From Opitutales bacterium (GTDB lineage: Bacteria > Verrucomicrobiota > Verrucomicrobiia > Opitutales > UBA953): 51,066 nucleotides of DNA. Positions 10,864 to 32,922 of this stretch are shown piece by piece. The stretch is from contig JAILGB010000016.1 in the NCBI GenBank assembly GCA_024697185.1, forward strand, positions 1 to 51,066, given 5' to 3'. The notes under the pieces are model-generated. The model worked only from the letters and a program-made list of their open reading frames with translations. It did not search any database and had not been told where the DNA came from. Position 1 is the first letter of the stretch. Each line of letters begins with the position of its first letter. A program made the position numbers and the translations under genes.

Positions 10864-12423
10864 TTATTTTTCGATTAAAGTTTTGCCCGTCATCTCCGGC
10901 GGGACCGGCAGTCCCATCATGTCGAGCAATGTCGGAGCGATATCGCAGAGCGCGCAATTGTCCTGACGCAACTTTTTGCCTTTGACGCCGTTGCCGTAGA
11001 GCACGACTTCGACGGGATTGAGCGAGTGTTGCGTGTGCGGGCCGTTGCTTTGCGTATCCCACATCACATCGACGTTCCCGTGGTCGGCAGTAATGAGCAC
11101 ATCGACGCCCATTTCGTCGGCGACGGTGAGAATCCGCCCGATGCAGGCATCGACGGTTTCGACCGCCTTGATGATCGCCGGCTGTTTGCCCGTATGGCCA
11201 ACCATGTCGGGATTAGCGAAATTGCTGACAATCAACGCATATTTTTTGGAGTGCAGCGCATTGATTATCGACTCGCAAACGCCTTCCGCCGACATCTCCG
11301 GCTTCAAGTCGTAAGTCGGCACCTCCTTGGTCGAAGGAATCAGGCCGCGCTCCTCTTGCGGGAACGGATCGTCGCGATAGTCGTTGAAGAAAAAGGTGAC
11401 ATGGGGGAATTTTTCCGTCTCCGCCGTGCGATATTGTGTCAAACCGAGTTTTGAAATCCACTCGCCGAGGATATTCGGCATTTTTTCGGGTTTCGGGAAC
11501 ACGACATTGGGGCAAAGTCCCTTTTGATAGTCCGTCATCGTCGCGTAGTAAATCGAGAGTTTTTTGCTCCGTTTGAAACCGTCAAAATCGTCGTTGATGA
11601 ACGCGCGCGTGAGTTCCCGCGGACGGTCTCCGCGAAAATTGAAGAAGATCACAGAATCCCCGTCTTTGATCGTTCCCGCCGGCTCGATGCATGTCGGCGT
11701 CACAAATTCGTCGCCCTGCATCGAATCGTTTGTCGGGTTTTTGTAATAATTTTCAACCGCTTCCGTCGCCGTCGCCGCTGTCGGAGCGTTCCCGCCGGTC
11801 AGGCATTCATAGGCCTTTTCGACACGATCCCAACGATTGTCGCGGTCCATCGCCCAAAAACGTCCGGCGACAGTCGCGATTTTGCCCAAACCGATCTTGG
11901 CGCAGTTTTCTTCGACTTCCCTGATAAATCCCGTTCCCGAAGTCGGCGGCGAATCTCTGCCGTCCATAAAGGCGTGCACATAAGCCTCTTTGACGCCCGC
12001 GATCTTGGCGCCGCGCAACAGTCCGTAGAGGTGCGGCAATGTCGAATGGACGCCCGCCGCCGACGCCAAGCCCATCAAATGAAGCGCGCCGCCCGTCTTT
12101 TTGACATTGTCGAACGCCGCCTGCAAAACCGGATTTTTCGCCATTCCTTCTTCTGTCAGTCCCAAATCGATGCGCATGATTTCCTGCGGCACGATACGGC
12201 CGGCTCCGATATTCTGGTGCCCGACTTCGGAATTGCCCATAATGCCTTCGGGCAAACCGACTGCGGGACCGTGCGCCGCCAGTTCCGTGCGAGGCCATTC
12301 CGCCGAGAGACGACGGCAAACGGGAATATTCGCCACTTTGAGCGCATTAAATTTGTCTTCCGCATGATTGTGATTTTCTCCCCAACCATCGCGAATAATC
12401 AGTAACACAGGTTTATAATTCAT
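10864..12423 (-). CDS. gpmI: 2,3-bisphosphoglycerate-independent phosphoglycerate mutase
   Basis: Interconverts 3- and 2-phosphoglycerate in glycolysis using two Mn ions. The 519-residue protein starts [16 protein letters not shown]; the phospho-acceptor serine is in [15 protein letters not shown], and the metal-binding TADHGN motif is near the C terminus. The ATG at 12423 was chosen because family homology begins there and a TATAAT lies 9 nt upstream; the open frame extends further up to 12648 without conserved sequence, across the divergent rnr start. Confidence 0.94.
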
Positions 12424-12432
12424 AATGTCCCA

Positions 12433-12462
12433 ATTATACTTTGTTCCGCCGACAAGGGTCAA
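12433..12462 (-). promoter_or_regulatory. gpmI promoter, near-leaderless
   Basis: TTGACC (12457-12462), 18-bp spacer, TATAAT (12433-12438), nine bases to the ATG at 12423. Confidence 0.55.
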
Positions 12463-12480
12463 AATAAAAATCAATTTTCC

Positions 12481-12514
12481 CGTTCCCGCAAAACGATTTT
12501 TTTTCGCGGGAACG
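12481..12514. repeat. Inverted motif pair in the divergent gpmI/rnr promoter region
   Basis: CGTTCCCGC (12481-12489) and GCGGGAACG (12506-12514) form a 9-bp hairpin with a 16-nt loop. It sits between two divergent starts, where no terminator is needed for either gene. Confidence 0.7.
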
Positions 12515-12527
12515 CCCTTTTTAATCG

Positions 12528-12533
12528 TATAAT
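12528..12533 (+). promoter_or_regulatory. rnr -10 box, leaderless geometry
   Basis: TATAAT ends six bases before the rnr ATG at 12540. No good -35 is seen; that position is covered by the right arm of the inverted motif pair. Confidence 0.45.
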
Positions 12534-12539
12534 AAAAAC

Positions 12540-14843
12540 ATGGATTTAGAAGAAAAGATTTTGGAATTGTTGAAACGCGGCGGCAGCGCGATGAAGGCTG
12601 AAGAAATTTATGACCGCATCGGAGGAAAACAGACCGCAACATTTTCAAAACTGAAAAAGACGTTCCCGCGACTCCTGCGGGCGGGAAGAATCACCTGCAT
12701 CAAAGGCAATCGCTATTGTATCCCGCAGACAGCAAACCTCTACATCGGGCACATTTTCTTTTCCCCGAGCGGCACCGCAAAATTTTTCGCGGACAAAACG
12801 GACGGCACGCGCGACGAAACTTGCGAGCCGGTCCGGATTTTGCCCGAAAACACCAAAACGGCCCTGCACGGCGACCGCGTCGAAATCCGTATCGATCCTC
12901 CCAAAAAACGCCCCAAGCGCGACAGCCGCGGCAGGGTGATTCGCTATCGCGACGATTGCGACTACGGCACCGTGATCAAGATTTTGGAACGCGCCATTAC
13001 AAAAACGACCGGCACCTATCGCGTCTCGCGCTACGGATGTTTCGTCACACCTGACGATCCGCACCTGACCCGGGATATTAGCGTTCCCGCGGCGGAGCAA
13101 TGCCGGATTTTTCCCCTCCCCCGCGACGGAGACAAAGTCGCCGTTGAATTGCAGGAATGGGAACATCAGAATGAAGCACCGCGCGGCGAAGTCGTCGAAG
13201 TCCTCGGCGCCGCCCACACGCCGATGGCGGAATACAAAGGCATCCTCTATCGCTACGATCTCAATCCGACGTTCCCGCAGGAAGTTTGCAACCAAGTCGC
13301 ACAATACGGCGACAGCGTTCCCGAAAAAGAGCTCAAGGGCAGACTCGACTGCCGCAAAATTTTCACCGTTACCATCGATCCCGACGACGCCAAGGATTTT
13401 GACGATGCGCTCTCGCTCGAAAACCTTTCCGACGGGACAGTGCGCGTCGGCATCCACATCGCCGATGTCTCCCACTATGTCGCGACGGGAACGCCACTCG
13501 ACATTGAAGCACGTTCCCGCGGCAACTCCACTTATCTCGTCGGCACCGTCGTCCCCATGCTGCCGCACCGGCTTTCGAGCGGACTTTGTTCGTTGATGGA
13601 AAACGAAACGAGGCTCTGCAAAAGCGTTTTTGTCACTTTTGACGCCGATGCACAGATTGTCAAAACGGAATTCGCCAACACAGCCATCCGCTCCGACAAA
13701 CGCCTCAACTACGGACAGGCGCTCGCCATCCTCCAAGGCGCGGACAACAAAACGCTGCGCGCCCTGCCCGCCGTTCCCGCACATATCAGCGGACACCCGG
13801 GACGACGCCTCGACGAAGTCTCCGACGCCGAACTCGACAAGATGCGGGAACACGTCACCCGACTCGGCAAAATCGCAAAAAAATTGCGGGAACGCCGTAT
13901 GCTCGCGGGAGCGCTCGATCTCAACTCGAGCGAAGTCAAAATCTACTGCGACGCCGACGGCTATGCGGACGAAATCGTCAAAATCGAACAAGACGAATCC
14001 CACCAGCTGGTCGAAGAATTTATGCTCGTCGCCAACGAAGCTGTCGCCACCGTCTTCAGCCGGGAACGCATTCCCTATATCGCCCGAGTGCACGACAAGC
14101 CCGAGCCCTCAAAACTCAAGGAACTGCGCGAAGACATGCTCGCCGCCGGCATCAAGACCGGCGACCTCTCCAAACGCGAAGAGATTATAAAACTGCTCGG
14201 AATCCTAAAAAGCCGTTCCGACGGCTATGTCCTCCGCATTCGCTTTTTAAAAAGCATGAAGCAGGCCTGCTACCGCGCCCGCGCAGACGGACATTACGGA
14301 CTCGCCAAAACCTATTACGCGCATTTCACATCCCCGATTCGGCGCTACGCCGATCTCACCGTTCATCGCGCCCTGGACTTTTATCTCCAAAAAAATCATT
14401 TGCCGACTGCCGCGAGCAAACGCGTTCCCGCACCGCAAATCTCCCTTCTCGCGGGAACGGCGGAACAGATCTCCGACAGCGAACGCAAATCCGTCGAAGC
14501 GGAACGCGATTCGCAAAAAATCAAACTTTTGGAATTTTTTGACCGCGAAGCCCGACGAAAAGAGAAACGCGACTTTGAAGCCGTCATCACCGATTTTTCC
14601 AACAAAGGCATTCTCGTCGAACTCGTCGTTTCACAAGCCTTCGGCATGGTGCGTTTCTCGACATTGAACGATTTCTTCAAAATCCTCGATGACCGGCAGC
14701 GCGTCCTCGGCAGCGCGTCCCGACGGCAATTTCGCATCGGACAGCACATCCGCGTCTGCGTCGCCGCCGTCGATCATTTTATGCGAACAATCGATTTCAC
14801 CCTCGCGGGAACGGGCAAAAAAACGTCCAAGATCCGACGTTAA
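12540..14843 (+). CDS. rnr: Ribonuclease R
   Basis: Processive 3'-5' exoribonuclease that degrades structured RNA. The 767-residue protein has an N-terminal winged-helix RNA-binding region, cold-shock-type OB folds, the RNB catalytic domain with the metal-binding aspartates in [14 protein letters not shown] at about 278-291, and a C-terminal S1 domain from about residue 675. The start agrees with the -10 box position. Its 3' end overlaps the convergent rnhB gene by four bases. Confidence 0.95.
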
Positions 14844-15631
14844 AATTCAAACTCTTCCTGCGACGGCTCCGAATCGCCCAAAACCTTTGACAAGCCCGGA
14901 ATCTTCAATTCGGGATTGCTGGCGAGCTTGTGCAAAAATTTCAGGCGGTGCAGCTCGCAAACGCCGTGTTCCCGCAACGCCTTTATGTGTTCCGGCGTTC
15001 CGTAGCCCTTATTTTTTTCAAACGCGTATTGCGGATATTTTTTTGCCAAATCGCACATCATGCTGTCGCGCGTGACCTTGGCGGCGATTGAAGCCATCGC
15101 GACGGACAAGCTCTTGGCGTCGCCGCCGACAATCGCCTCATGCTGCCACGCAAAAGGCTGCAGCGGCAAACCGTCCACAAGGATCGGCACCCACAGCGTC
15201 TTGTCGGCGAACAACGGCGTGTCCGTCGTTCCCGCGGGCGCAAACGGAGGATTTTCCATCGTATAGCCGGCCTTAAACAAAACACCCTCGATCGCGCGGT
15301 TCATCGCCAGATGGGTCGCGCCCAAAATATTGAAGCTCTCAATCTCGATAACGGATGCCGTTCCCGTGGCAAAAAACAGATCGCCGGCCTCCTCCCAATG
15401 GCGGATCAATGCAAAAACCTCCTCGCGCGTCTCCGCACCGAGCTGTTTGGAATCGTTGATAAAAGCCGCCCGCTTGACCGGTGTCGATTTTTCAAAAAAA
15501 CTGCGTTTGAGCCAAACGCACGCAGCGACGACCGGACCCGCAAAACAGCCGCGCCCTGCCTCATCAACGCCCGCAAGTCCGTCACTGCCGGATTTGCCAA
15601 AATATCTTTTATCGAAACCGAACAGATTCAT
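14840..15631 (-). CDS. rnhB: Ribonuclease HII
   Basis: Cleaves RNA in RNA-DNA hybrids, including single misincorporated ribonucleotides. The catalytic Asp-Glu pair is in GVDEAGRGCFAGP at 21-33, with further family blocks SIAAKVTRDSMM and KGYGTPEHIKAL. The 263-residue length is slightly above the usual 200-230 because of insertions around residue 120-150. It follows gmhA by 6 nt and overlaps the end of rnr on the other strand. Confidence 0.93.
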   Translation of the reverse strand: MNLFGFDKRYFGKSGSDGLAGVDEAGRGCFAGPVVAACVWLKRSFFEKSTPVKRAAFINDSKQLGAETREEVFALIRHWEEAGDLFFATGTASVIEIESFNILGATHLAMNRAIEGVLFKAGYTMENPPFAPAGTTDTPLFADKTLWVPILVDGLPLQPFAWQHEAIVGGDAKSLSVAMASIAAKVTRDSMMCDLAKKYPQYAFEKNKGYGTPEHIKALREHGVCELHRLKFLHKLASNPELKIPGLSKVLGDSEPSQEEFEF

Positions 15632-15637
15632 AATTCG

Positions 15638-16249
15638 TCAATCCGCAAAAAAATGCTCCTCGAGCGCTAAGCACAGACTGTGATAAACCGGCAAATGAAG
15701 TTCCTGAATCCGATAAGTCTCCGTATCGGGAACGCAAATGCAAATGTCGGCGAGGCTTTTCAACTTGCCGCCCGTCGCTCCCGTGAGCCCGATCGTTTTC
15801 ATCCCCTTGGCGCGCGCGACCTGCATCGCCGGACAGACGTTTTTGGAATTGCCCGACGTCGAGATCCCCAAAAGCACATCGCCCGCCCTGCCCAAGCCCC
15901 ATGTCAGCTGCGCATAGACATAATACGGATCGCAGTCGTTGAGCCACGCCGTATTGATCGCGCCCATCGAATGCAACGAAATCGCCGGCAACGCGTCTTG
16001 CAGTTTCGCCGCCAAATCCTCACCCAAAGCGACGCGCGCCGACGCCTTTAGCGGGCGTTTGGAGCAAAAACCTTTGAGCAGTTCGCCGGCGATGTGGTCG
16101 GCGTCCGCCGCGCTGCCGCCGTTCCCGCAAATCAACAGCTTGCCGCCGTTCGAATAAGAGGCGATCAGCGCGTCAAGCGCCGACAAAATCGAATCACGGC
16201 AAGATTCGAGCGCCGGATAACGGGCAATCAAAGTATCGATGGCTTTCAT
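15638..16249 (-). CDS. gmhA: Phosphoheptose isomerase (SIS domain), GmhA-like
   Basis: Converts sedoheptulose 7-phosphate to D-glycero-manno-heptose 7-phosphate, the first step of LPS core heptose synthesis. The SIS-fold motif LLICGNGGSAADADHIAGEL is near residue 60, and the family's SAxSxH-like and STSGNSKNV blocks are present. The ATG at 16249 was chosen over an upstream start at 16315 because it has a clear Shine-Dalgarno (GGAG, about 8 nt before) and homology begins there; this gives 203 residues. It follows the dehydrogenase gene in the same operon. DiaA-like SIS proteins are the main alternative. Confidence 0.85.
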   Translation of the reverse strand: MKAIDTLIARYPALESCRDSILSALDALIASYSNGGKLLICGNGGSAADADHIAGELLKGFCSKRPLKASARVALGEDLAAKLQDALPAISLHSMGAINTAWLNDCDPYYVYAQLTWGLGRAGDVLLGISTSGNSKNVCPAMQVARAKGMKTIGLTGATGGKLKSLADICICVPDTETYRIQELHLPVYHSLCLALEEHFFAD

Positions 16250-16263
16250 AAATTTTCTCCGTT

Positions 16264-16989
16264 TTAAATCAAAGTTATCCCTCCGTCGATCACAAACTGC
16301 GTTCCCGTGACCCACGAAGCCGCCGGCGACAGCAAATAACGCACCGCATGCGCGATGTCCGCGGGAACGCCAAAACGCCCCAAGGGATAGCGCGCCGCAT
16401 CAGCCGCCAACTGTTCGTCCGACAAATCCGTATGCAAAAGCGGCGTCTCCACAGCCCCGGGACAGACAAGATTGACGCGAATGCCGGACGGCGACAATTC
16501 GAGAGCCAAGGTCCGCGCCAACGCCGACAGCGCCGCCTTGCTCGAAGCATACATGCCGTTGGCGGGATGAACCGTCACGGGACCGTCAATCGAAGCGATA
16601 AAAACAAGACTCGCGCCGGCGGAAATCTTGCGGGCGGACAAAAGCGACTTGCAAAGCAACGAGGCGGCAAAGAAATTTGTCTCAAAAATCGAGCGCAGTT
16701 TTTTCTCGCTAATCGCCGCAAACGGCCGACGGGCGTTCGTTCCCGCGGCAAAAACAATGCCGTCGAGCGGCTCGTCAATCCCAGCGACAAGCGCTTCGCG
16801 ACCGGCCGCGTCACAGAGATCCGCCACAATCCGCGTTCCCGCAAACGCCGCAAGACGCTCCGCATTGCGTCCCGTCAAAAAAAGCCGGGCGTCAGAAAAA
16901 TCCGCCGCACAAGCCGCCCCGATTCCGGAACTCGCGCCCGTAATCAAAATCTTCCTGCCCGCCAAAGAAAAAGCTTCCGTGCCCGTCAT
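16264..16989 (-). CDS. Short-chain dehydrogenase/reductase (FabG-like)
   Basis: A 241-residue classical SDR. The cofactor-binding TGASSGIG is at 17-24, and the catalytic Ser133, Tyr147 and Lys151 (YASSK) are present, so it should be active. The C terminus (SWVTGTQFVIDGGITLI) is FabG-like. Its ATG overlaps the stop of the acyl carrier protein gene in ATGA. Coupling to a carrier protein and an acetyltransferase suggests that it reduces a carrier-bound or sugar-bound keto group in surface glycan or lipid synthesis; the substrate is not known. Confidence 0.85.
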   Translation of the reverse strand: MTGTEAFSLAGRKILITGASSGIGAACAADFSDARLFLTGRNAERLAAFAGTRIVADLCDAAGREALVAGIDEPLDGIVFAAGTNARRPFAAISEKKLRSIFETNFFAASLLCKSLLSARKISAGASLVFIASIDGPVTVHPANGMYASSKAALSALARTLALELSPSGIRVNLVCPGAVETPLLHTDLSDEQLAADAARYPLGRFGVPADIAHAVRYLLSPAASWVTGTQFVIDGGITLI

Positions 16990-17210
16990 TGTTTTTTTAC
17001 CGCCAGTTCAAAAAGTTCACCTGCCGTATCCGCCGAACGGATGTCGTTCCCGCTGAGCAAAACTCCAAATTCGTCATCGATGACCGCAATCATCGACAAA
17101 CCCGCCAGCGAGCCCCACGACGGCAATTCGCGAAAACGCGTCGAAGGCTCCAAAAAAGCCCCTTCAAAAATCGGCGAAAGCGCCGCTGAAAATTTTTCAA
17201 ATGTCATCAT
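16986..17210 (-). CDS. Small acyl carrier protein (phosphopantetheine-attachment)
   Basis: A 74-residue carrier protein. The predicted phosphopantetheine serine is Ser34 in PSWGSLAGLSM, where the usual Asp before Ser is Gly; the pattern WxSLAxLxxIxxIxxEFGV is otherwise intact. The ATG at 17210 overlaps the stop of the acetyltransferase gene (TGATG), and its own stop overlaps the dehydrogenase start, so all three are translationally coupled. Its position points to a dedicated pathway rather than bulk fatty acid synthesis. Confidence 0.8.
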   Translation of the reverse strand: MMTFEKFSAALSPIFEGAFLEPSTRFRELPSWGSLAGLSMIAVIDDEFGVLLSGNDIRSADTAGELFELAVKKQ

Positions 17211-17851
17211 CAAAGTTTCAAAATCTTGGCGGGAACGCCGATATATGTTTTGCCGTCCGTCATAGCGGCGACCGCAAAAGAACAAGCCGCCAGCGATGTT
17301 TCATTGCCGACGGGAACACCCTGGCAGACGACGGAATTGGAGCCGAAAAGATTGGCGTCGCCGACAGAAACGTTCCCGGACAGACGCGCGCCCGTCAGAC
17401 AAACATTACAGTCGCCCATCACAAGATCGTGGCCAGCCGTCGCGTTGAGATTAAAAAGATTGAAATTGCCGAGCGTCACATTGCAGGAAATATCCACGCC
17501 CGCCTGAATCACGTTCCCGCAACCCATACGCACCGTGTCGCGCTCAAGAAAATGTGCGCGGGGAGAAATCAGATTCGGGAACGACAGCCGTGGATTGTCC
17601 AGGCGTTCCCGAACACGACGCAAAACGCGCGGATTGCCCAAGGCAATCACTACAGCCAACGGCTCTTCAACAGCATTCAAATCTTGCAAAGTGCCCAAAA
17701 TCTTCCCTTGCGGGACCGACTTTAATGCGGGATCGTCATCAAAAAAACCGACAAAATCAAACGGCACTTGCGTTCCCGCCGCATTGATTTCCCGAATCAA
17801 GCAGGCAATCTCGCGACCGAAGCCGCCGGCGCCGAACACCGCAATTTTCAT
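17210..17851 (-). CDS. NeuD/PglD-like sugar O- or N-acetyltransferase
   Basis: The 213-residue protein has an N-terminal Rossmann-like domain (MKIAVFGAGGFGREIACLI) that binds the UDP-sugar in this family, and a C-terminal left-handed beta-helix with hexapeptide repeats ending in YIGVPAKIL. The catalytic His is probably in NATAGHDLVMG. Family members acetylate sialic acid or amino sugars during surface glycan synthesis. It is the first gene of the operon, 6 nt after a -10 box. Confidence 0.82.
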   Translation of the reverse strand: MKIAVFGAGGFGREIACLIREINAAGTQVPFDFVGFFDDDPALKSVPQGKILGTLQDLNAVEEPLAVVIALGNPRVLRRVRERLDNPRLSFPNLISPRAHFLERDTVRMGCGNVIQAGVDISCNVTLGNFNLFNLNATAGHDLVMGDCNVCLTGARLSGNVSVGDANLFGSNSVVCQGVPVGNETSLAACSFAVAAMTDGKTYIGVPAKILKL

Positions 17852-17857
17852 ACGCTT

Positions 17858-17886
17858 ATTATAAATTAGCTTTCACGGATTTTAAA
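17858..17886 (-). promoter_or_regulatory. Promoter of the acetyltransferase-ACP-SDR-gmhA-rnhB operon, leaderless geometry
   Basis: TATAAT (17858-17863) with six bases to the ATG at 17851; TTTAAA at 17-bp spacing (17881-17886) is a weak -35. Confidence 0.45.
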
Positions 17887-17890
17887 CATA

Positions 17891-17924
17891 AAAAAAACCG
17901 TTCCCGCAATGAACGGGAACGGAA
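17891..17924 (-). terminator. rpmE intrinsic terminator built from an inverted motif pair
   Basis: CCGTTCCCG (17898-17906) and CGGGAACGG (17914-17922) form a perfect 9-bp stem with a 7-nt loop, followed on the minus strand by a run of T. It lies 23 nt after the rpmE stop. Confidence 0.82.
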
Positions 17925-17944
17925 TTTTCTCTGCAGCCAAATGC

Positions 17945-18205
17945 TTATTTCTTGGCGGCACGACCGCGGCGCGCGAACTTTGACTGGAACTTGTCAACGC
18001 GGCCGGCAGTGTCAACGAAGCGCTTTTCGCCCGTGTAAGCCGGGTGGGAAGCAGCCGTCACATCGCGTGCGATCACGCAATATTCAATGCCATCGATAAC
18101 GACAGTCTCTTTGGAGGAGAGCGTCGATTTTGTCAAAAACTGGGTGCCGGTCGAAACGTCGCGGAAGCAAACGTTGTTAACGGTAGGATGAATATTCTTT
18201 TTCAT
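17945..18205 (-). CDS. rpmE2: 50S ribosomal protein L31, type B
   Basis: The 86-residue protein starts MKKNIHPTVNNVCFRDVSTG and has the family's SHPAYTGEKR block. It lacks the CxxC zinc ligands of the zinc-binding L31 form, so it is the zinc-independent type. It lies 26 nt after rpmJ in a two-gene operon. The 17.9-19.2 kb stretch around it holds no copy of the iterated word. Confidence 0.92.
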   Translation of the reverse strand: MKKNIHPTVNNVCFRDVSTGTQFLTKSTLSSKETVVIDGIEYCVIARDVTAASHPAYTGEKRFVDTAGRVDKFQSKFARRGRAAKK

Positions 18206-18231
18206 GACGATAAAATTCCTTTTGCGTTTGA

Positions 18232-18357
18232 TTAACCTTGACGCGCCTTGTAACGCGGATGGGTTTTGTTGATGACATAGACACGACCCTTGCGACGCAC
18301 CAACTGGCAGTTCGGGTGACGTGATTTAAGATTTTTGAGTGATGACGAGACTTTCAT
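18232..18357 (-). CDS. rpmJ: 50S ribosomal protein L36, type B
   Basis: A 41-codon gene that begins [20 protein letters not shown] and ends [21 protein letters not shown]. This is the longer L36 paralogue (YkgO type), which lacks most of the zinc-ligand Cys/His of classic L36. It pairs with the zinc-free L31 directly downstream, as in the zinc-starvation ribosomal protein pairs of other bacteria; whether zinc (Zur) regulates it here cannot be seen from the sequence. Confidence 0.93.
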
Positions 18358-18441
18358 GGTCTTTTGCTTTCTAAAAAATTAATTGTATATTCTATGAAAC
18401 TCTTTTTTTACAAAAAAGTCAAGCGATTTTTTGCAGGAACA

Positions 18442-20115
18442 CTATCGGGAGAACTGTCTGTATTTGATTCTGTGAGGTTGGGTTTCTGTCCCGTGGCGTT
18501 TGTGAAAATCCTCCAGGTAGGAGGAATAGTTCCCTTCGTGCCAGTAGATCCGGCTGTCGCCTTCAAATGCCAAGATATGCGTTGCGACGCGGTCGAGGAA
18601 CCAGCGGTCGTGGGTGATGACGACGGCGCAGCCGGCAAAAGAGTTCAGCGCGTCTTCGAGAGCCCGGATCGTATTGACGTCGAGATCGTTTGTCGGCTCG
18701 TCGAGCAGGAGCACATTCGCGCCGCTCTTCAACATGCGTGCGAGGTGGACGCGATTGCGTTCTCCGCCCGAAAGCGTTCCCACCAATTTTTGCTGTTCCG
18801 CTCCCGTGAAACCGAATTTTGCGGCGTATTGCCTTGCGGGGATGCGCAACTTTCCCAGCTCGACCATTTCTTCGCCGTCCGAGATCACTTCCCAAAGCGC
18901 CTTGTTGTTGTCGAGCGCCTCGCGCGACTGATCGACATATGCCAGTTTGACGCTGTCGCCCAAAAGCAGTTCGCCGGCGTCCGGCTTTTCCTGCCCGACA
19001 ATCATACGGAACAATGTCGTCTTACCGGCGCCGTTGGGTCCGATGATCCCGATGATTCCTCCCGGCGGCAGGACAAAATCGACTTTGTCGAGCAGCAGTT
19101 TGTCGCCAAAGGCCTTTGTCAGTTGTCGCGCGGTGATGACGCGTTGTCCGAGTCTCGGGCCGGCGGGAATATAAATCTCCATCTTTTTTTCGAGTTCCCG
19201 TTCGTCTTGGGCGAGCATCGCCTCATAGGCGTTGAGTCGCGCCTTGTTTTTGGCGAGCCGTCCCGAAGGCGATGTCGCCGCCCAAGCGCGTTCCCGCGCC
19301 ATTGTCTTTTGGCGTGCGGACTCGACTTTTTCTTCGGCGGCGAGCCGTTTTTGCTTTTGCTCGAGCCAGGAAGAATAATTGCCCTTCCAAGGGATGCCGT
19401 ATCCGCGGTCGAGTTCCAAAATCCAGCCGGCGACATTGTCGAGAAAGTAGCGGTCGTGAGTGATGGCGATGACGGTGCCTTTGTATTGTTGCAAATGACG
19501 TTCGAGCCAGTCGATCGTCTCCGCGTCCAGGTGGTTGGTCGGCTCGTCGAGCAGCAAAATGTCCGGCTCGCTCAAAAGGAGGCGGCAAAGCGCCACGCGG
19601 CGTTTTTCTCCGCCGGAAAGCGTTCCCGCGAGCGCTTCGCCGGGCGGACAGCGCAAAGCGTCCATCGCCTGTTCGATGCGCGAATCCAAGTTCCAAGCGT
19701 CTGTCGCGTCCAGTTTTTCCTGAATCTCGCCCTGACGGTTGAGGATCGCCTCCTGTTTGGCGGGATCGTCCGTTTCGCCGAGTTGGATAAAAGTGTCGTC
19801 GTATTCGTCGAGCAGACGTCGCTGTTCGGCACAACCTTCCTCAACGCATTCTTTGACGCTTTTGTCGGGATCGAGGCGCGGCTCCTGTTCGAGATAGCCG
19901 ATCGTATAGCCGGGAACGCAGGAAACATCGCCCTCAAACTGTTTGTCAACGCCCGCCATAATTTTCAAAAGCGTCGATTTCCCGCTGCCGTTGAGACCCA
20001 AAACCCCGATTTTCGCGCCGTAAAAATAGGACAGAGAAACGTCCTTGATCAGCAATTTTTTTTCAAATCCCTTCGAGACGTGGGACATGGTGTAAATGAT
20101 TTTTTCGTCTGCCAT
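18442..20115 (-). CDS. ettA: Energy-dependent translational throttle protein EttA (ABC-F ATPase)
   Basis: EttA binds the ribosomal E site and gates elongation according to ATP supply. The 557-residue protein has two ABC domains (Walker A GLNGSGKST near 38-46 and GPNGAGKTT near 357), signature LSGGEKRR and LSGGERNR, Walker B LLLDEPTNHLD and LLLDEPTNDLD, and the arm and P-site tether region between them. The family's exact 550-560 length and these motifs separate it from Uup and YheS. Confidence 0.93.
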   Translation of the reverse strand: MADEKIIYTMSHVSKGFEKKLLIKDVSLSYFYGAKIGVLGLNGSGKSTLLKIMAGVDKQFEGDVSCVPGYTIGYLEQEPRLDPDKSVKECVEEGCAEQRRLLDEYDDTFIQLGETDDPAKQEAILNRQGEIQEKLDATDAWNLDSRIEQAMDALRCPPGEALAGTLSGGEKRRVALCRLLLSEPDILLLDEPTNHLDAETIDWLERHLQQYKGTVIAITHDRYFLDNVAGWILELDRGYGIPWKGNYSSWLEQKQKRLAAEEKVESARQKTMARERAWAATSPSGRLAKNKARLNAYEAMLAQDERELEKKMEIYIPAGPRLGQRVITARQLTKAFGDKLLLDKVDFVLPPGGIIGIIGPNGAGKTTLFRMIVGQEKPDAGELLLGDSVKLAYVDQSREALDNNKALWEVISDGEEMVELGKLRIPARQYAAKFGFTGAEQQKLVGTLSGGERNRVHLARMLKSGANVLLLDEPTNDLDVNTIRALEDALNSFAGCAVVITHDRWFLDRVATHILAFEGDSRIYWHEGNYSSYLEDFHKRHGTETQPHRIKYRQFSR

Positions 20116-27814: not shown

Positions 27815-28420
27815 TTACTTTTTTGCGGGAACGATGTAAACGATAAAGCCGTCGCGGAAAAGCGGCCGTTTGAGAAGATTGTCGGGATCGCGATAATCCA
27901 CCTTGTCCGCATCATGCAGGGACGTCAGACCGGGATCCACAAAAAGCCGGACACCGTTGTCCGCCTCGATGCGGCGACTGTGGCACAAATGATCGATTCC
28001 CGGACCGATGACGAGGGAAATTTTTTCATCGCGGCTCAGACGCAACGCCAGTTCGTCGAGATCACTTTTCCAAAAATTTTTAGCGTTCCCGCCGATTGTC
28101 CCGGCCTCAAAATGCAAAACGACCGTCTTCAACGACGCCCCGGCGGATTTTTTTAAAGCCCGCAACAAATGTTCCAGCGTTCCCGTCCGTTTTTTATAAC
28201 TGAGACTGCCGCGCTGGGAAATCAGATAGCGGTCATAGAGTTCTATTTTTGACGCGCCCTTAAAAACGTTCCCGAAGATTTCCTCATAGCTCAAAAAATC
28301 TCCGCGTTTGAACTCGAGCACTTTCGCGGGAACGGCCTTTTGCGGAGCCGAAGCGGCGGGAACGCTCCAGACGGGAACGCAAAATGCGAGAAAACAAAGG
28401 AAAATCGTCAGTTTTTTCAT
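27815..28420 (-). CDS. Secreted/periplasmic protein with a MITD1-C/PLD-like domain (tentative)
   Basis: A 201-residue protein with a signal peptide (residues 1 to about 24). The mature part has an IELYDRYL block near 59-66 and a C-terminal segment HSRRIEADNGVRLFVDPGL at about 147-165. That resembles the HDR-motif region of the phospholipase-D-like domain at the C terminus of MITD1 and of some bacterial PLD-like proteins, with HSRR in place of HDR. This is a pattern match by eye and no catalytic HKD pair is seen. It is followed after one base by the OppC-like gene, so the two are coupled. The function is not known. Confidence 0.6.
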   Translation of the reverse strand: MKKLTIFLCFLAFCVPVWSVPAASAPQKAVPAKVLEFKRGDFLSYEEIFGNVFKGASKIELYDRYLISQRGSLSYKKRTGTLEHLLRALKKSAGASLKTVVLHFEAGTIGGNAKNFWKSDLDELALRLSRDEKISLVIGPGIDHLCHSRRIEADNGVRLFVDPGLTSLHDADKVDYRDPDNLLKRPLFRDGFIVYIVPAKK

Positions 28421-28427
28421 CTTGTCT

Positions 28428-28469
28428 CAAAAAACAAAGGTCTCAAAGCGTTGCGTCTTCAAGACCTTT
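28428..28469 (-). terminator. Terminator after the autotransporter gene
   Basis: AAAGGTCT (28436-28443) and AGACCTTT (28462-28469) form an 8-bp stem with an 18-nt loop, followed on the minus strand by TTTG and a T-run, between the autotransporter stop and the next gene. Confidence 0.6.
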
Positions 28470-28497: not shown

Positions 28498-31400
28498 TTA
28501 GAATCGTGCGCGCGCCATCACGTTAAAGCTGTGTTCGGGCTCGCTGTCCTGGCGTGCGAACGTGCAGTCATAGTCCACGGAGACCGTAAAATGATCCGTG
28601 AGCATGAACGTGTTCCCGAAGCCGACGCTCACATAATCCTGTCCCTCGTGGTTGAGATCCGTCGAATAGCGCGCGTCGGAAGCCGCAACAAAGGAGACGT
28701 CGATGTCACCGTTGTCGATAAACTCGTGATTGTAGCTGACGCGGAACTCCGGCACGATCGTGCAGAAACTGTCGAGATCAAAGCGCGCCGTCGTCCGCCA
28801 GGCGAGCGTCAACAAAAGCGAGGAATAATCGAAATCGTCCGTCTTGAGGGCGTCGATCCCGCTGCCTTTTTCACTATAGCCGTCCACCATATTGTAAACA
28901 TAGCGCAAGGCGATGCTCGGTCCCGTCGTCCACTGATAGCTGAGGGCGTGCGAACCCGCATCCCACTCATAGCCCGCTGAGAGATTGGCGACAATCTGGC
29001 TGCCGTCGGGATCGCCCTTCGCCGTCGAGGAATACGAGCCGATGCGCGTGTTGCGCTTCATCTCATAGTCCGCCATGCCGTAGGAGAGCATTGCCGAATA
29101 ATAGGTCGAACCGATATTGTCCGTCGTCGATCCCGCCGCATAAACGCCGATCGTCCGCATTTGCGCCTCCGTCTTGGAACTGGTCGTTTCAAGCTTGGTC
29201 GCACCTTCGAGATAGGCGACAAAAACACCCATCGACAGCGTATCCGTCACTCCGTAATCGATACCGAAGGCGGCATTGAGCATCCGGGTCTCGGTCTTGC
29301 CCGTATGCTTGACCTTTTTGCCGTCGCTGAACGCATAACCGCCGTTCGCCCAGACCATGTAGGGCGTCGTGTAATTGATCAGGTCAAACTGACGGAACGA
29401 TGTCGATGCCAAAAGGTTGGGATTGACAGAGTAGGAAAAACCGTAGGAGGAGAAGAGCGGCTGCGCCCAAACGTCATTTACGGGAGCGCCGGCGCGCAAT
29501 TCGCGGGAACGGCGTTCCACCACGCCCACCGTCGCGTTCGCCTGCTTGTTGTGCAGCGTCGCGATCGTTTTCAGATTGACCGGCAAAAGCTGGTCCAATC
29601 CCGCCGTCACTTCGCTCACCAAAGTCATCGGGCTGATACCCAAAGTCGCGTCGCCGTCAAAAACGGCAATCAGATCCGAAGACATTCCGGCGTTGGGCTC
29701 GCCCGCCAAGCAAGTGCGCAAGCCCTTGAGAATCGCCTTTTGCTCATCGGTATAAGCCGAATACGTCAGGCGCAACGGCGTGATCGACACCGCCGCCGTC
29801 GAAGCCAAATTGCCCGTCGTTGTGTCGATCTCATACTCCAACGCGACCTCCGTGCCGCCGCCGACATAAAGCTGCGGAGCGTTGCCGATAGAAACCGTAA
29901 CGGAGGAGCTGTCAACCACAAGCCCGCCGGAAACCGGCGTTCCCGCGGCATTCAAAACCCGGATAAAAGAAATTTCATCCTGCGGCAAAACTCCGCCCTC
30001 ATACGAGACATCCATCGCGATGTCGAGGTCCGCGAACGATACCGCCGGAGACGCCGCCGGCGTCAACGCCTGCACCGTCAAAAGACTGCCAATCGTATAG
30101 TTGTAGGTTCCCGCAAACGAAACGGCGGTCGCCGCGTTCGTCTTGATCGTTGCCGTGCCGTCGATATTGAAAGTGCCGTTGGAGGAGATTGTCGAATTGC
30201 CCGTCGTCAACATCAGGCCGTTTCTGAAATTGATCGTCGAGGTCGCCGCCGTTGTGACAGCCGCGGACTTAACCGTTCCCGCAAATGTCAGGGTGGCGTG
30301 ATTGTTGGCGAGCAGATTTCCCGTCAGTTCCGCGCCGTCGTTCAGATAGACATCCGCATAATTCGCGCCGACCTGACCTGTGACCTTGCCGGAGACGGAG
30401 AGCCGCGGACGATACTCATAAGACGCTTCCTCCGTCCCGTAAACCGTCCCGTCCGCCGTCACCGTTTCCGTCAAAATATTTTTAGTGATGACAGCGCCCG
30501 TAGCGGTCAGACCGCCGTCCAGGGTCACGCCGGAGCCGACGGTGATCGCTCCCGCCGTCGAAGGGGCGGTCGCCACGTCGTAGGTGACGGAACTCTCGAT
30601 TTCGTTCCCGTCCTCGTCATAGCCCGTAACCAATGTTTTTGAAACTGTTGACCAATTGTCCTGATAGCCCGCCGTCAGGCTGCTCGCCTTTACGGTCCCG
30701 CCCGCCACGGAGAGAGAGCCGCCGTTGACCACCATTGTGCCGCTGACCATCGTGTTTTCGATGGTGGTCGAGCCGCCCTTCATCGTGAGCGCAATGGACA
30801 AGTTGGCAAGGCTCGTTCCCGCCGTCCGCGCGACGTTGAGGGAACCGCCGTTCATCGTCACCGTGCCCAAACTCATCGAATTGCTCGTGCCGCCGACATT
30901 GATCGCACCGCTGTTGAGCGTGATCCCGCCGGAAATCGTGCTGCCGCTGCCGACAGAAAGCGTTCCGCCGTTGATCGTGAGACCGCCGGGCGTCGTAATC
31001 GTGCCGTTGGCGCCCAGCGAAATGGCGCCGCCGTTGAGATAGCCCGCGGCGGATTTGCCGCCGACGCCGCTCATTTCAATGGCGCCGAGCGTGCCGTTGA
31101 CCGCCAAAACGCCCGAATTGACCACAAAGACATCCTGAACATTCATCGTCGCGCCGGAAGCGATCGTAAAAGTCTTGGCGCTGTCCCAGGCAAAGGAGCG
31201 CACTTCGAGCGTTTTGGAATTGCTGACGCCCGTGACGCCGCTTTCCATCGCCACCGTGCCGGTATGGAACGTCAACGAAGTCGCCCCGATGCTCGCAGCC
31301 GTCCAGTCCACCGTCGAACCGAAATCATCGAGATAGGAAATGTTCAGAGACCATGTGCCCTTTGCAGATTCGCCCCAAAACGCGTTGCTGACAAAAGTCC

Positions 31401-32922
31401 ACGCCCAAGCCTCCTGCACGGTGCCGACGCCCGTATAGGAAGGCGACATCAAGACGCTCGTCGTCTCATGGCCGTTTTCGTTGATGTGCGTCAACGTGAT
31501 CGTCGTGCCCTTTGTCGGAATCCCCGCGCTGTTCGCCGCGCCCAAGATATTAACATTCGAGAGATTGACCGTCACCTCGACACTCTCCAAGGCGTCCGCA
31601 GTCGTCACCTTTTTGCTGATCGTCTGCGAAAGCGTTTTGGTCGAGGAGTTGTAGTTGAAATTTTTAGAATTCGCCAAAACGACCGACGACGTCCCCTCAA
31701 TCGTCACATAGGCGATATCGTCAACCGCCTTGACAAAATCCTCGGCGTTGACCATACCGAAGCCGTAGTCGTTGGAAAAACTCAAACCGGCGGCGTTAGT
31801 CACCCAGCCCGTATAGTCCTCAGGCTGCATCGTCGGCAAAACCGTCGCACTGCGAGCGAGCGCATGCTTTGCCCAGCGCACGTCCATGGCGGGATTGCCC
31901 TGCGCACCCAACGCCAAAACGCCCGCGACGACAGCCGTCGCATTTTGAGTCGCCTGATTCAAATCGTATTTTGCCGCAAAACCGTAAGACTCGATCACGC
32001 CCGAGGAGTTCGCCTTCGTAGAACTTGACGAGCCCGAAGAACTCGAAGAGCTCGAGGAACCCTCACTGCGTCCCGCGGAAAAAACATTGTCGCCGGGAGC
32101 AGAGACAAAGACGGCGGATCCCCAATCGCTCTGAGGCGAATAAACACCGTTTTTGTTGGTCGCCGCGACATAAATGGTGTCGGGGTTCACAAGACAGTCG
32201 CCGTTCAACTGGGCGGTGGTGTTCACCGAAAAGTCATCGCTTTGAGAGCGCAAATCGCCCGCATTCGTCACCAAAATCACATTGTTCTTGGACACCAGCG
32301 AATACAGACTGCGCACCGACGCCAATTCCTTGTAGTTGTCCTGCTCGTAGTTTTGGTCATCGCCGAGCCAGGGACAGATAAAAATCCGGGTCTGGGGCGC
32401 CGACACATAGGTCGCACTCTCATAAATCCCGTCCGCCTGCACAAAATTTTTCAAACCCGTAAATGTCGTCAACGCATCAAAAACACCCTCGGCGTTCACC
32501 TGGCTGTTGCCCCCCGACAAAACGTGATAGCCTGCAAGCTGCGCTCCGTAGGCGATACCCTTGATTTCTCCGCCGCCGGCAGCAAGACCGCCGAAGAAAA
32601 CGCCGCCGGGTTCATCCGTGTACATTTTGTCGGGCTCCGTCTCTTCCGTCGTAAAATAATCCTTGCTCAACGCCGCATTGTAAACATCCGCAATCGCCGG
32701 ATGCGACCAGTCGAGAAACTGACCGAAAACACCGATGACAACGCCCGTTCCCGTGCGCCCGGACTTCCAGACAGGCTCAACATTGATCCATTCGTTCTGC
32801 CATTGTTCCTCCAAATGCTTGGGACCATCGGAAGTCACCACAGTCGTCGCAGCAAAAGCCGACAGGGCGGACGCGCCGCAAATGAGCAATGAAAGCGTAA
32901 GACGAGGTAATTTTGTCTTCAT
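28498..32922 (-). CDS. Giant autotransporter with kexin-like S8 domain (catalytic residues lost), P domain, beta-helix passenger and outer-membrane barrel
   Basis: The 1474-residue protein has a signal peptide ending AFA at about 24, a kexin/proprotein-convertase-like domain (about 50-400), a Ser-rich stretch (289-301), a P/Homo B domain (about 415-556, with FVSNAFWGESAKGTWSLNI), a Gly/Ser/Thr/Val-rich repetitive passenger (about 560-1180; repeated GGSL- and GTV-type units) and a C-terminal autotransporter barrel ending in Phe. Aligned to kexins, the catalytic Asp, His and Ser positions hold Gly67, Pro105 and Gln326, while flanking family residues persist. It may therefore be a non-enzymatic surface protein. 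The ATG at 32922 starts the signal peptide; the frame is open to 32988 without conserved sequence. Confidence 0.85.
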   Translation of the reverse strand: MKTKLPRLTLSLLICGASALSAFAATTVVTSDGPKHLEEQWQNEWINVEPVWKSGRTGTGVVIGVFGQFLDWSHPAIADVYNAALSKDYFTTEETEPDKMYTDEPGGVFFGGLAAGGGEIKGIAYGAQLAGYHVLSGGNSQVNAEGVFDALTTFTGLKNFVQADGIYESATYVSAPQTRIFICPWLGDDQNYEQDNYKELASVRSLYSLVSKNNVILVTNAGDLRSQSDDFSVNTTAQLNGDCLVNPDTIYVAATNKNGVYSPQSDWGSAVFVSAPGDNVFSAGRSEGSSSSSSSSGSSSSTKANSSGVIESYGFAAKYDLNQATQNATAVVAGVLALGAQGNPAMDVRWAKHALARSATVLPTMQPEDYTGWVTNAAGLSFSNDYGFGMVNAEDFVKAVDDIAYVTIEGTSSVVLANSKNFNYNSSTKTLSQTISKKVTTADALESVEVTVNLSNVNILGAANSAGIPTKGTTITLTHINENGHETTSVLMSPSYTGVGTVQEAWAWTFVSNAFWGESAKGTWSLNISYLDDFGSTVDWTAASIGATSLTFHTGTVAMESGVTGVSNSKTLEVRSFAWDSAKTFTIASGATMNVQDVFVVNSGVLAVNGTLGAIEMSGVGGKSAAGYLNGGAISLGANGTITTPGGLTINGGTLSVGSGSTISGGITLNSGAINVGGTSNSMSLGTVTMNGGSLNVARTAGTSLANLSIALTMKGGSTTIENTMVSGTMVVNGGSLSVAGGTVKASSLTAGYQDNWSTVSKTLVTGYDEDGNEIESSVTYDVATAPSTAGAITVGSGVTLDGGLTATGAVITKNILTETVTADGTVYGTEEASYEYRPRLSVSGKVTGQVGANYADVYLNDGAELTGNLLANNHATLTFAGTVKSAAVTTAATSTINFRNGLMLTTGNSTISSNGTFNIDGTATIKTNAATAVSFAGTYNYTIGSLLTVQALTPAASPAVSFADLDIAMDVSYEGGVLPQDEISFIRVLNAAGTPVSGGLVVDSSSVTVSIGNAPQLYVGGGTEVALEYEIDTTTGNLASTAAVSITPLRLTYSAYTDEQKAILKGLRTCLAGEPNAGMSSDLIAVFDGDATLGISPMTLVSEVTAGLDQLLPVNLKTIATLHNKQANATVGVVERRSRELRAGAPVNDVWAQPLFSSYGFSYSVNPNLLASTSFRQFDLINYTTPYMVWANGGYAFSDGKKVKHTGKTETRMLNAAFGIDYGVTDTLSMGVFVAYLEGATKLETTSSKTEAQMRTIGVYAAGSTTDNIGSTYYSAMLSYGMADYEMKRNTRIGSYSSTAKGDPDGSQIVANLSAGYEWDAGSHALSYQWTTGPSIALRYVYNMVDGYSEKGSGIDALKTDDFDYSSLLLTLAWRTTARFDLDSFCTIVPEFRVSYNHEFIDNGDIDVSFVAASDARYSTDLNHEGQDYVSVGFGNTFMLTDHFTVSVDYDCTFARQDSEPEHSFNVMARARF

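Follow-up and report, generated by a model that had tools for sequence, protein, structure and literature searches.

The gene at positions 28,498-32,922 of the analysed stretch of DNA (the window, 51,066 nucleotides long, from a Verrucomicrobiota gut bacterium) raises the question of whether a protein built like a surface-bound subtilisin-type protease can be maintained once its catalytic centre is gone, and what such a protein would then do. The first-pass annotation had read it as a kexin-like autotransporter whose three catalytic positions are all replaced, that is, as a pseudoprotease shown on the cell surface.

Architecture and predicted fold

The open reading frame lies on the minus strand, starts with an ATG at 32922, ends with a stop codon at 28498, and runs through 1474 codons free of stops and frameshifts. 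The following features were assigned:

28436..28469 (-), terminator-like hairpin directly past the stop codon (13-pair stem, T-rich tail; such matches are no commoner in this region than in shuffles)
28498..32922 (-), whole gene, S8-P autotransporter with a dead protease domain, 1474 aa (ORF and Pfam)
28567..29355 (-), autotransporter beta-barrel, aa 1190-1452, with C-terminal Phe (PF03797, 136-142 bits; C-terminus EHSFNVMARARF)
29623..31287 (-), passenger with repeats rich in Gly, Thr and Ser, about aa 546-1100, probably a beta-helix (from the sequence pattern and an alignment with relatives)
31336..31461 (-), core of the P domain, P_proprotein match at aa 488-529 (PF01483, 23.8-24.3 bits, cut-off 21)
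31756..32751 (-), Peptidase_S8 domain, aa 58-389 (PF00082, 55.6-55.8 bits, profile 1-288)
32851..32922 (-), signal peptide, about aa 1-24, MKTKLPRLTLSLLICGASALSAFA (by inspection; same position and type in relatives)

The product carries the hallmarks of a classical (type Va) autotransporter: a signal peptide (by inspection), a passenger, a PF03797 barrel (aa 1190-1452, 136.5 bits in the Pfam scan) and a C-terminal Phe. Membership in the S8 fold family is indicated by a PF00082 match that covers all 288 profile positions (55.8 bits, cut-off 21.8), together with the predicted subtilisin fold. The PF00082 match was only seen when the N-terminal part was scanned alone; the scan of the whole protein missed the domain, apparently through a search-filter effect. 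The P domain directly follows the S8 domain and the PDB match to kexin spans it, as in kexin/furin-like (S8B) proteins. Pfam and PDB matches thus agree with the earlier reading of the protein as an autotransporter whose S8 domain belongs to the kexin branch and is accompanied by a P domain. To call the P domain clear was somewhat strong: it is present, with a weak Pfam score that barely exceeds the cut-off. The linker remarked on by the earlier reader (GNPAMDVRWAKHAL) is conserved in the protein's own family. The segment that joins the signal peptide to the S8 domain shows no visible prodomain. Just downstream, at window positions 27815-28420 (-), lies a gene for a 201-aa secreted-looking protein. 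Its phospholipase D-like match stays below the threshold (MIT_C, 19.7 bits, cut-off 25), and none of the other seven genus members encodes a relative.

The structure prediction proposed in the first-pass annotation indicates that the fold is retained. An AlphaFold2 model of the S8 part, built from a 34-sequence alignment, reached a pLDDT of 77.9 and a pTM of 0.83; a six-sequence version (pLDDT 41) was discarded as too poor. Among solved structures, the model comes closest to those of furin (1p8j, Z 38.5, rmsd 2.3 A over 307 residues) and of kexin (1r64, Z 38.4). As the model leans on an alignment of intact relatives, it speaks for a sequence that is compatible with the fold rather than proving that the domain folds in the cell. 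Over the S8 and P domains together, the best PDB match by phmmer is the Aeromonas sobria serine protease ASP (3hjr, E 7e-11).

Loss of the catalytic residues

Four codons of the S8 domain stand at the columns on which subtilase catalysis depends:

31945..31947 (-), codon 326, Gln at the catalytic Ser column (ATQNATA in place of GTSxxxP)
32254..32256 (-), codon 223, Asp at the oxyanion-hole Asn column (N223D; alignments)
32605..32607 (-), codon 106, Gly at the catalytic His column (alignments; E104-P105-G106-G107-V108-F109 versus E-T-H-G-T-F)
32722..32724 (-), codon 67, Gly at the catalytic Asp column (alignments)

In the 34-sequence S8 alignment, the 33 other sequences all have D, H, N and S where the window protein has G67, G106, D223 and Q326. 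A profile alignment across genus, family and order gave the same picture, with D/H/N/S in all 32 relatives that span the four columns (four further fragments lacking one or more of these columns are left out of this count) and G/G/D/Q in the window protein alone. The earlier claim that all three catalytic positions are replaced is therefore upheld and extended by the loss of the oxyanion Asn. Its assignments of Gly67 to the Asp column and of Gln326 to the Ser column were right; the His column, placed at Pro105, is in fact Gly106. The surroundings have changed as well, both in the GTSxxxP motif (G324A, F327N, P330A) and at a residue of the substrate strand (S184P).

The register agrees with phmmer residue alignments against two solved structures, 3hjr (the Aeromonas serine protease) and 1ot5 (kexin). 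An alternative register with real Asp, His and Ser residues at the active site, which would have overturned the annotation, was looked for and rejected: neither the three alignments nor the PDB residue alignments offer a triad. The Asp/His/Ser triad and oxyanion Asn of an active S8 peptidase are absent (G67, G106, Q326, D223), and with its catalytic residues gone the protein would not count among the SphB1/NalP-type maturation proteases, which have a catalytically competent S8 passenger.

Relatives and an intact paralogue

We compared the genome of the window (G000) with the other seven members of its genus (G001-G007), all of them gut MAGs; the records are named Opitutales bacterium, Verrucomicrobia bacterium and Candidatus Spyradosoma merdigallinarum. 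Each of the eight genomes encodes one or more S8 proteins. In all seven others, among them the two nearest relatives, G001 and G006, the window protein has a full-length, catalytically intact relative, whereas the dead form is confined to one genome, apparently a MAG, of 32 contigs. The genome of the window also encodes the intact paralogue that the first-pass annotation suggested looking for: an S8-P-barrel protein of 1878 aa on contig C2. The gene that follows it encodes a type IV pilin-like protein, which carries an N-terminal methylation motif (L003 7389-8006, +).

The Opitutales S8-P autotransporters (G001-G007, genus g4) share the whole-length architecture of the window protein, and those in which all four columns are covered differ from it in having D/H/N/S intact. 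In Pfam scans of three relatives from the genus, the S8 domain and barrel were found in all three and the P-domain threshold was passed by two. Judged by sequence, this family is widespread in Opitutales gut bacteria. As S8-P-barrel proteins are found across the relatives and in the paralogue, the architecture is ordinary for this group, and the earlier view that a kexin/P-domain pair on an autotransporter is unusual does not hold; only the loss of catalysis is exceptional. Synteny was uninformative on orthology, since within the fetched flanks the gene neighbourhoods of the relatives are unlike that of the window and the lnt neighbours differ in the four relatives examined. The viral contigs were found to encode no relative.

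Several further observations concern this family and its genomes. In G001, the intact S8-P autotransporter (L061 7310-11596, -) lies directly downstream of a 2426-aa PATR-repeat autotransporter (12223-19503, -), a possible substrate. The 1.59 Mb genome G000 contains eight autotransporter barrels (contigs C2, C3, C5, C13, C16, C20 and C29), two of which belong to open frames of more than 3,500 codons. Elsewhere, an S8-P match lies within an open frame of 8317 codons (G054:C202:1925-3352). A second S8-P gene of G002 (L038 8001-9865, Candidatus Spyradosoma merdigallinarum, DVOG01000111; L049) is missing the whole Asp/His stretch, keeps Ser and the oxyanion Asn, and has a PEP-CTERM-like tail (VVPEPSAFGLFAGTFALALAASRRRRKA) at its end. 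It is a truncated gene or an assembly fault, and possibly a second inactivated member.

Maintenance or decay

We think it fairly probable that the window gene encodes an S8/P-type autotransporter which fully lost catalysis on the lineage of one species while its frame, signal peptide and barrel were kept, so that a non-enzymatic head is displayed. A chance open reading frame, a sequencing error or a chimaera were rejected as explanations, as base errors would not give 34 changed invariant sites along with an open frame and collinearity with the family over the whole length.

The protein has changed unevenly. In a tree of the S8 and P domains, the window branch measures 2.84, and those of its sisters G001 and G006 measure 0.68 and 0.74; the barrel tree gives 0.63, 0.22 and 0.41 in the same order. 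With P values that assume independent sites, the columns invariant in the other seven genus members but changed in the window protein amount to 32 of 101 in S8 versus 12 of 77 in the barrel (P = 0.015), a contrast that is seen against G006 (P = 0.006) and is not significant against G001 alone (P = 0.41); the 34 sites changed out of 113 include all four catalytic residues (P = 0.007), which were picked after the data had been seen.

This pattern bears on a rather unlikely alternative, namely that the gene is a redundant copy in early decay, its function lost once the intact paralogue had taken over and its frame still open because the loss is recent. An intact paralogue is indeed present in the same genome, and rapid change is mainly confined to the S8 part. 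Moreover, new residues at hydrophobic core positions of S8 are hydrophobic in 17 of 29 cases (59%), where random mutation would give 51%; this is near the neutral pattern and gives no sign of selection on the S8 fold itself. The open frame argues against decay. When the excess S8 changes were simulated as neutral, a mean of 8.3 stops arose in codons 1-545 and none of 300 runs remained without a stop, whereas the 1474 codons observed contain neither a stop nor a frameshift. We conclude that selection held the frame open during at least some of this period. The barrel, too, is conserved, with 53% and 49% identity to G001 and G006 compared to 55% between those two; against G001, identity is 42% in the S8 domain.

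What the frame was kept open for is a separate matter, and it could be the stalk and barrel rather than the S8 head. In its full form, with the head a mere folded cap drifting under weak constraint and the long stalk working as an adhesin or spacer, we regard this explanation as quite unlikely. Relaxed change in the head, near-neutral core substitutions, and conservation of the barrel and pre-barrel region are all in its favour, but the stalk itself is the most variable part between relatives (29-30% identity), and 69 of the 101 invariant S8 columns have been retained in the head. Highly improbable is an active protease with a rearranged or unconventional centre, for which nothing positive can be cited beyond D71 and H74 near the Asp site, as H74 is invariant in the aligned intact members and hence structural there, position 71 is acidic in several of these, no His, Cys or Ser is found at the His and Ser columns or within the GTS-equivalent loop, and the oxyanion Asn is lost.

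Proposed role and known precedents

On the evidence of alignments and open frame, then, a pseudoprotease at the cell surface, as first annotated, remains the supported reading: the protein appears as a case of complete, lineage-specific loss of catalysis in a surface protein that is still maintained. It would be exported through its own barrel, and its passenger would fold into a subtilisin-like head unable to cleave itself or to process other surface proteins. Without self-cleavage, the protein would remain on display at the surface, its long stalk carrying a head with no enzymatic activity. The retained head would then have a binding or structural role at the surface, so that the whole is probably a surface-displayed binding or structural protein, and any proteolytic maturation in this species would be left to the intact paralogue on contig C2.

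Among known systems, the S8 autotransporters (SphB1, NalP, AasP, Ssp, EprS; group 15 of PMC9289746) have in common with the window protein a signal peptide, an N-terminal S8 domain, a beta-helical stalk and a PF03797 barrel, and its barrel shows weak NCBIfam similarity to EprS. Active S8 autotransporters process surface proteins (PMC9289746), and those of the SphB1/NalP type are active maturation proteases or toxins (PMC9289746, PMC9977779), whereas the S8 domain described here is dead and belongs to the kexin/P-domain branch. Furin and kexin (S8B) resemble the predicted head in fold (Z ~38) and in the P domain that follows; in contrast to them, the window protein lacks the catalytic residues and a visible prodomain. 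The Aeromonas sobria enzyme ASP (3hjr, 3wqb) is likewise kexin-like with a P domain, but this enzyme is active, soluble and secreted, matures with the chaperone ORF2 and has no barrel. In its available text, an older survey gives S8-autotransporter and S8-P-domain proteins as separate architectures and counts 42 inactive homologues among 966 serine proteases, where these are thus not rare (PMC2605481).

By analogy, the nearest functional precedent is CspC/CspA of Clostridioides difficile. There, as in the window protein, S8 catalysis was lost in one lineage while homologues are still active, and the loss gave rise to a signalling protein, CspC being a proposed germinant receptor (PMC6636752). 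However, CspC keeps the catalytic Asp (D105) and loses two residues, whereas the window protein keeps none of the three; CspC is also a soluble spore protein with a prodomain and a jelly-roll domain and not an autotransporter. An outer-membrane counterpart of the CspC/CspB pair, in which the dead head would have been recruited as a surface receptor, decoy or regulator working with the intact paralogue, is conceivable on this analogy, although we assign it a low probability. Inactive subtilases as such were already known from CspC/CspA; the window protein differs by complete loss of catalysis on an autotransporter, and a limited literature search found no published inactive S8 (subtilase) autotransporter.

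In pseudoproteases, an enzyme scaffold has been turned to binding or regulation. Here, the dead form is found close to an active paralogue and, in sister species, to active proteins of the ancestral type, which makes the step from active protease to displayed protein directly testable. Should the role of the window protein be binding, S8 pseudoproteases would be extended to bacterial autotransporters; should it be another, the protein would provide a clear case of a surface protein in which the constraint on a single domain has been relaxed.
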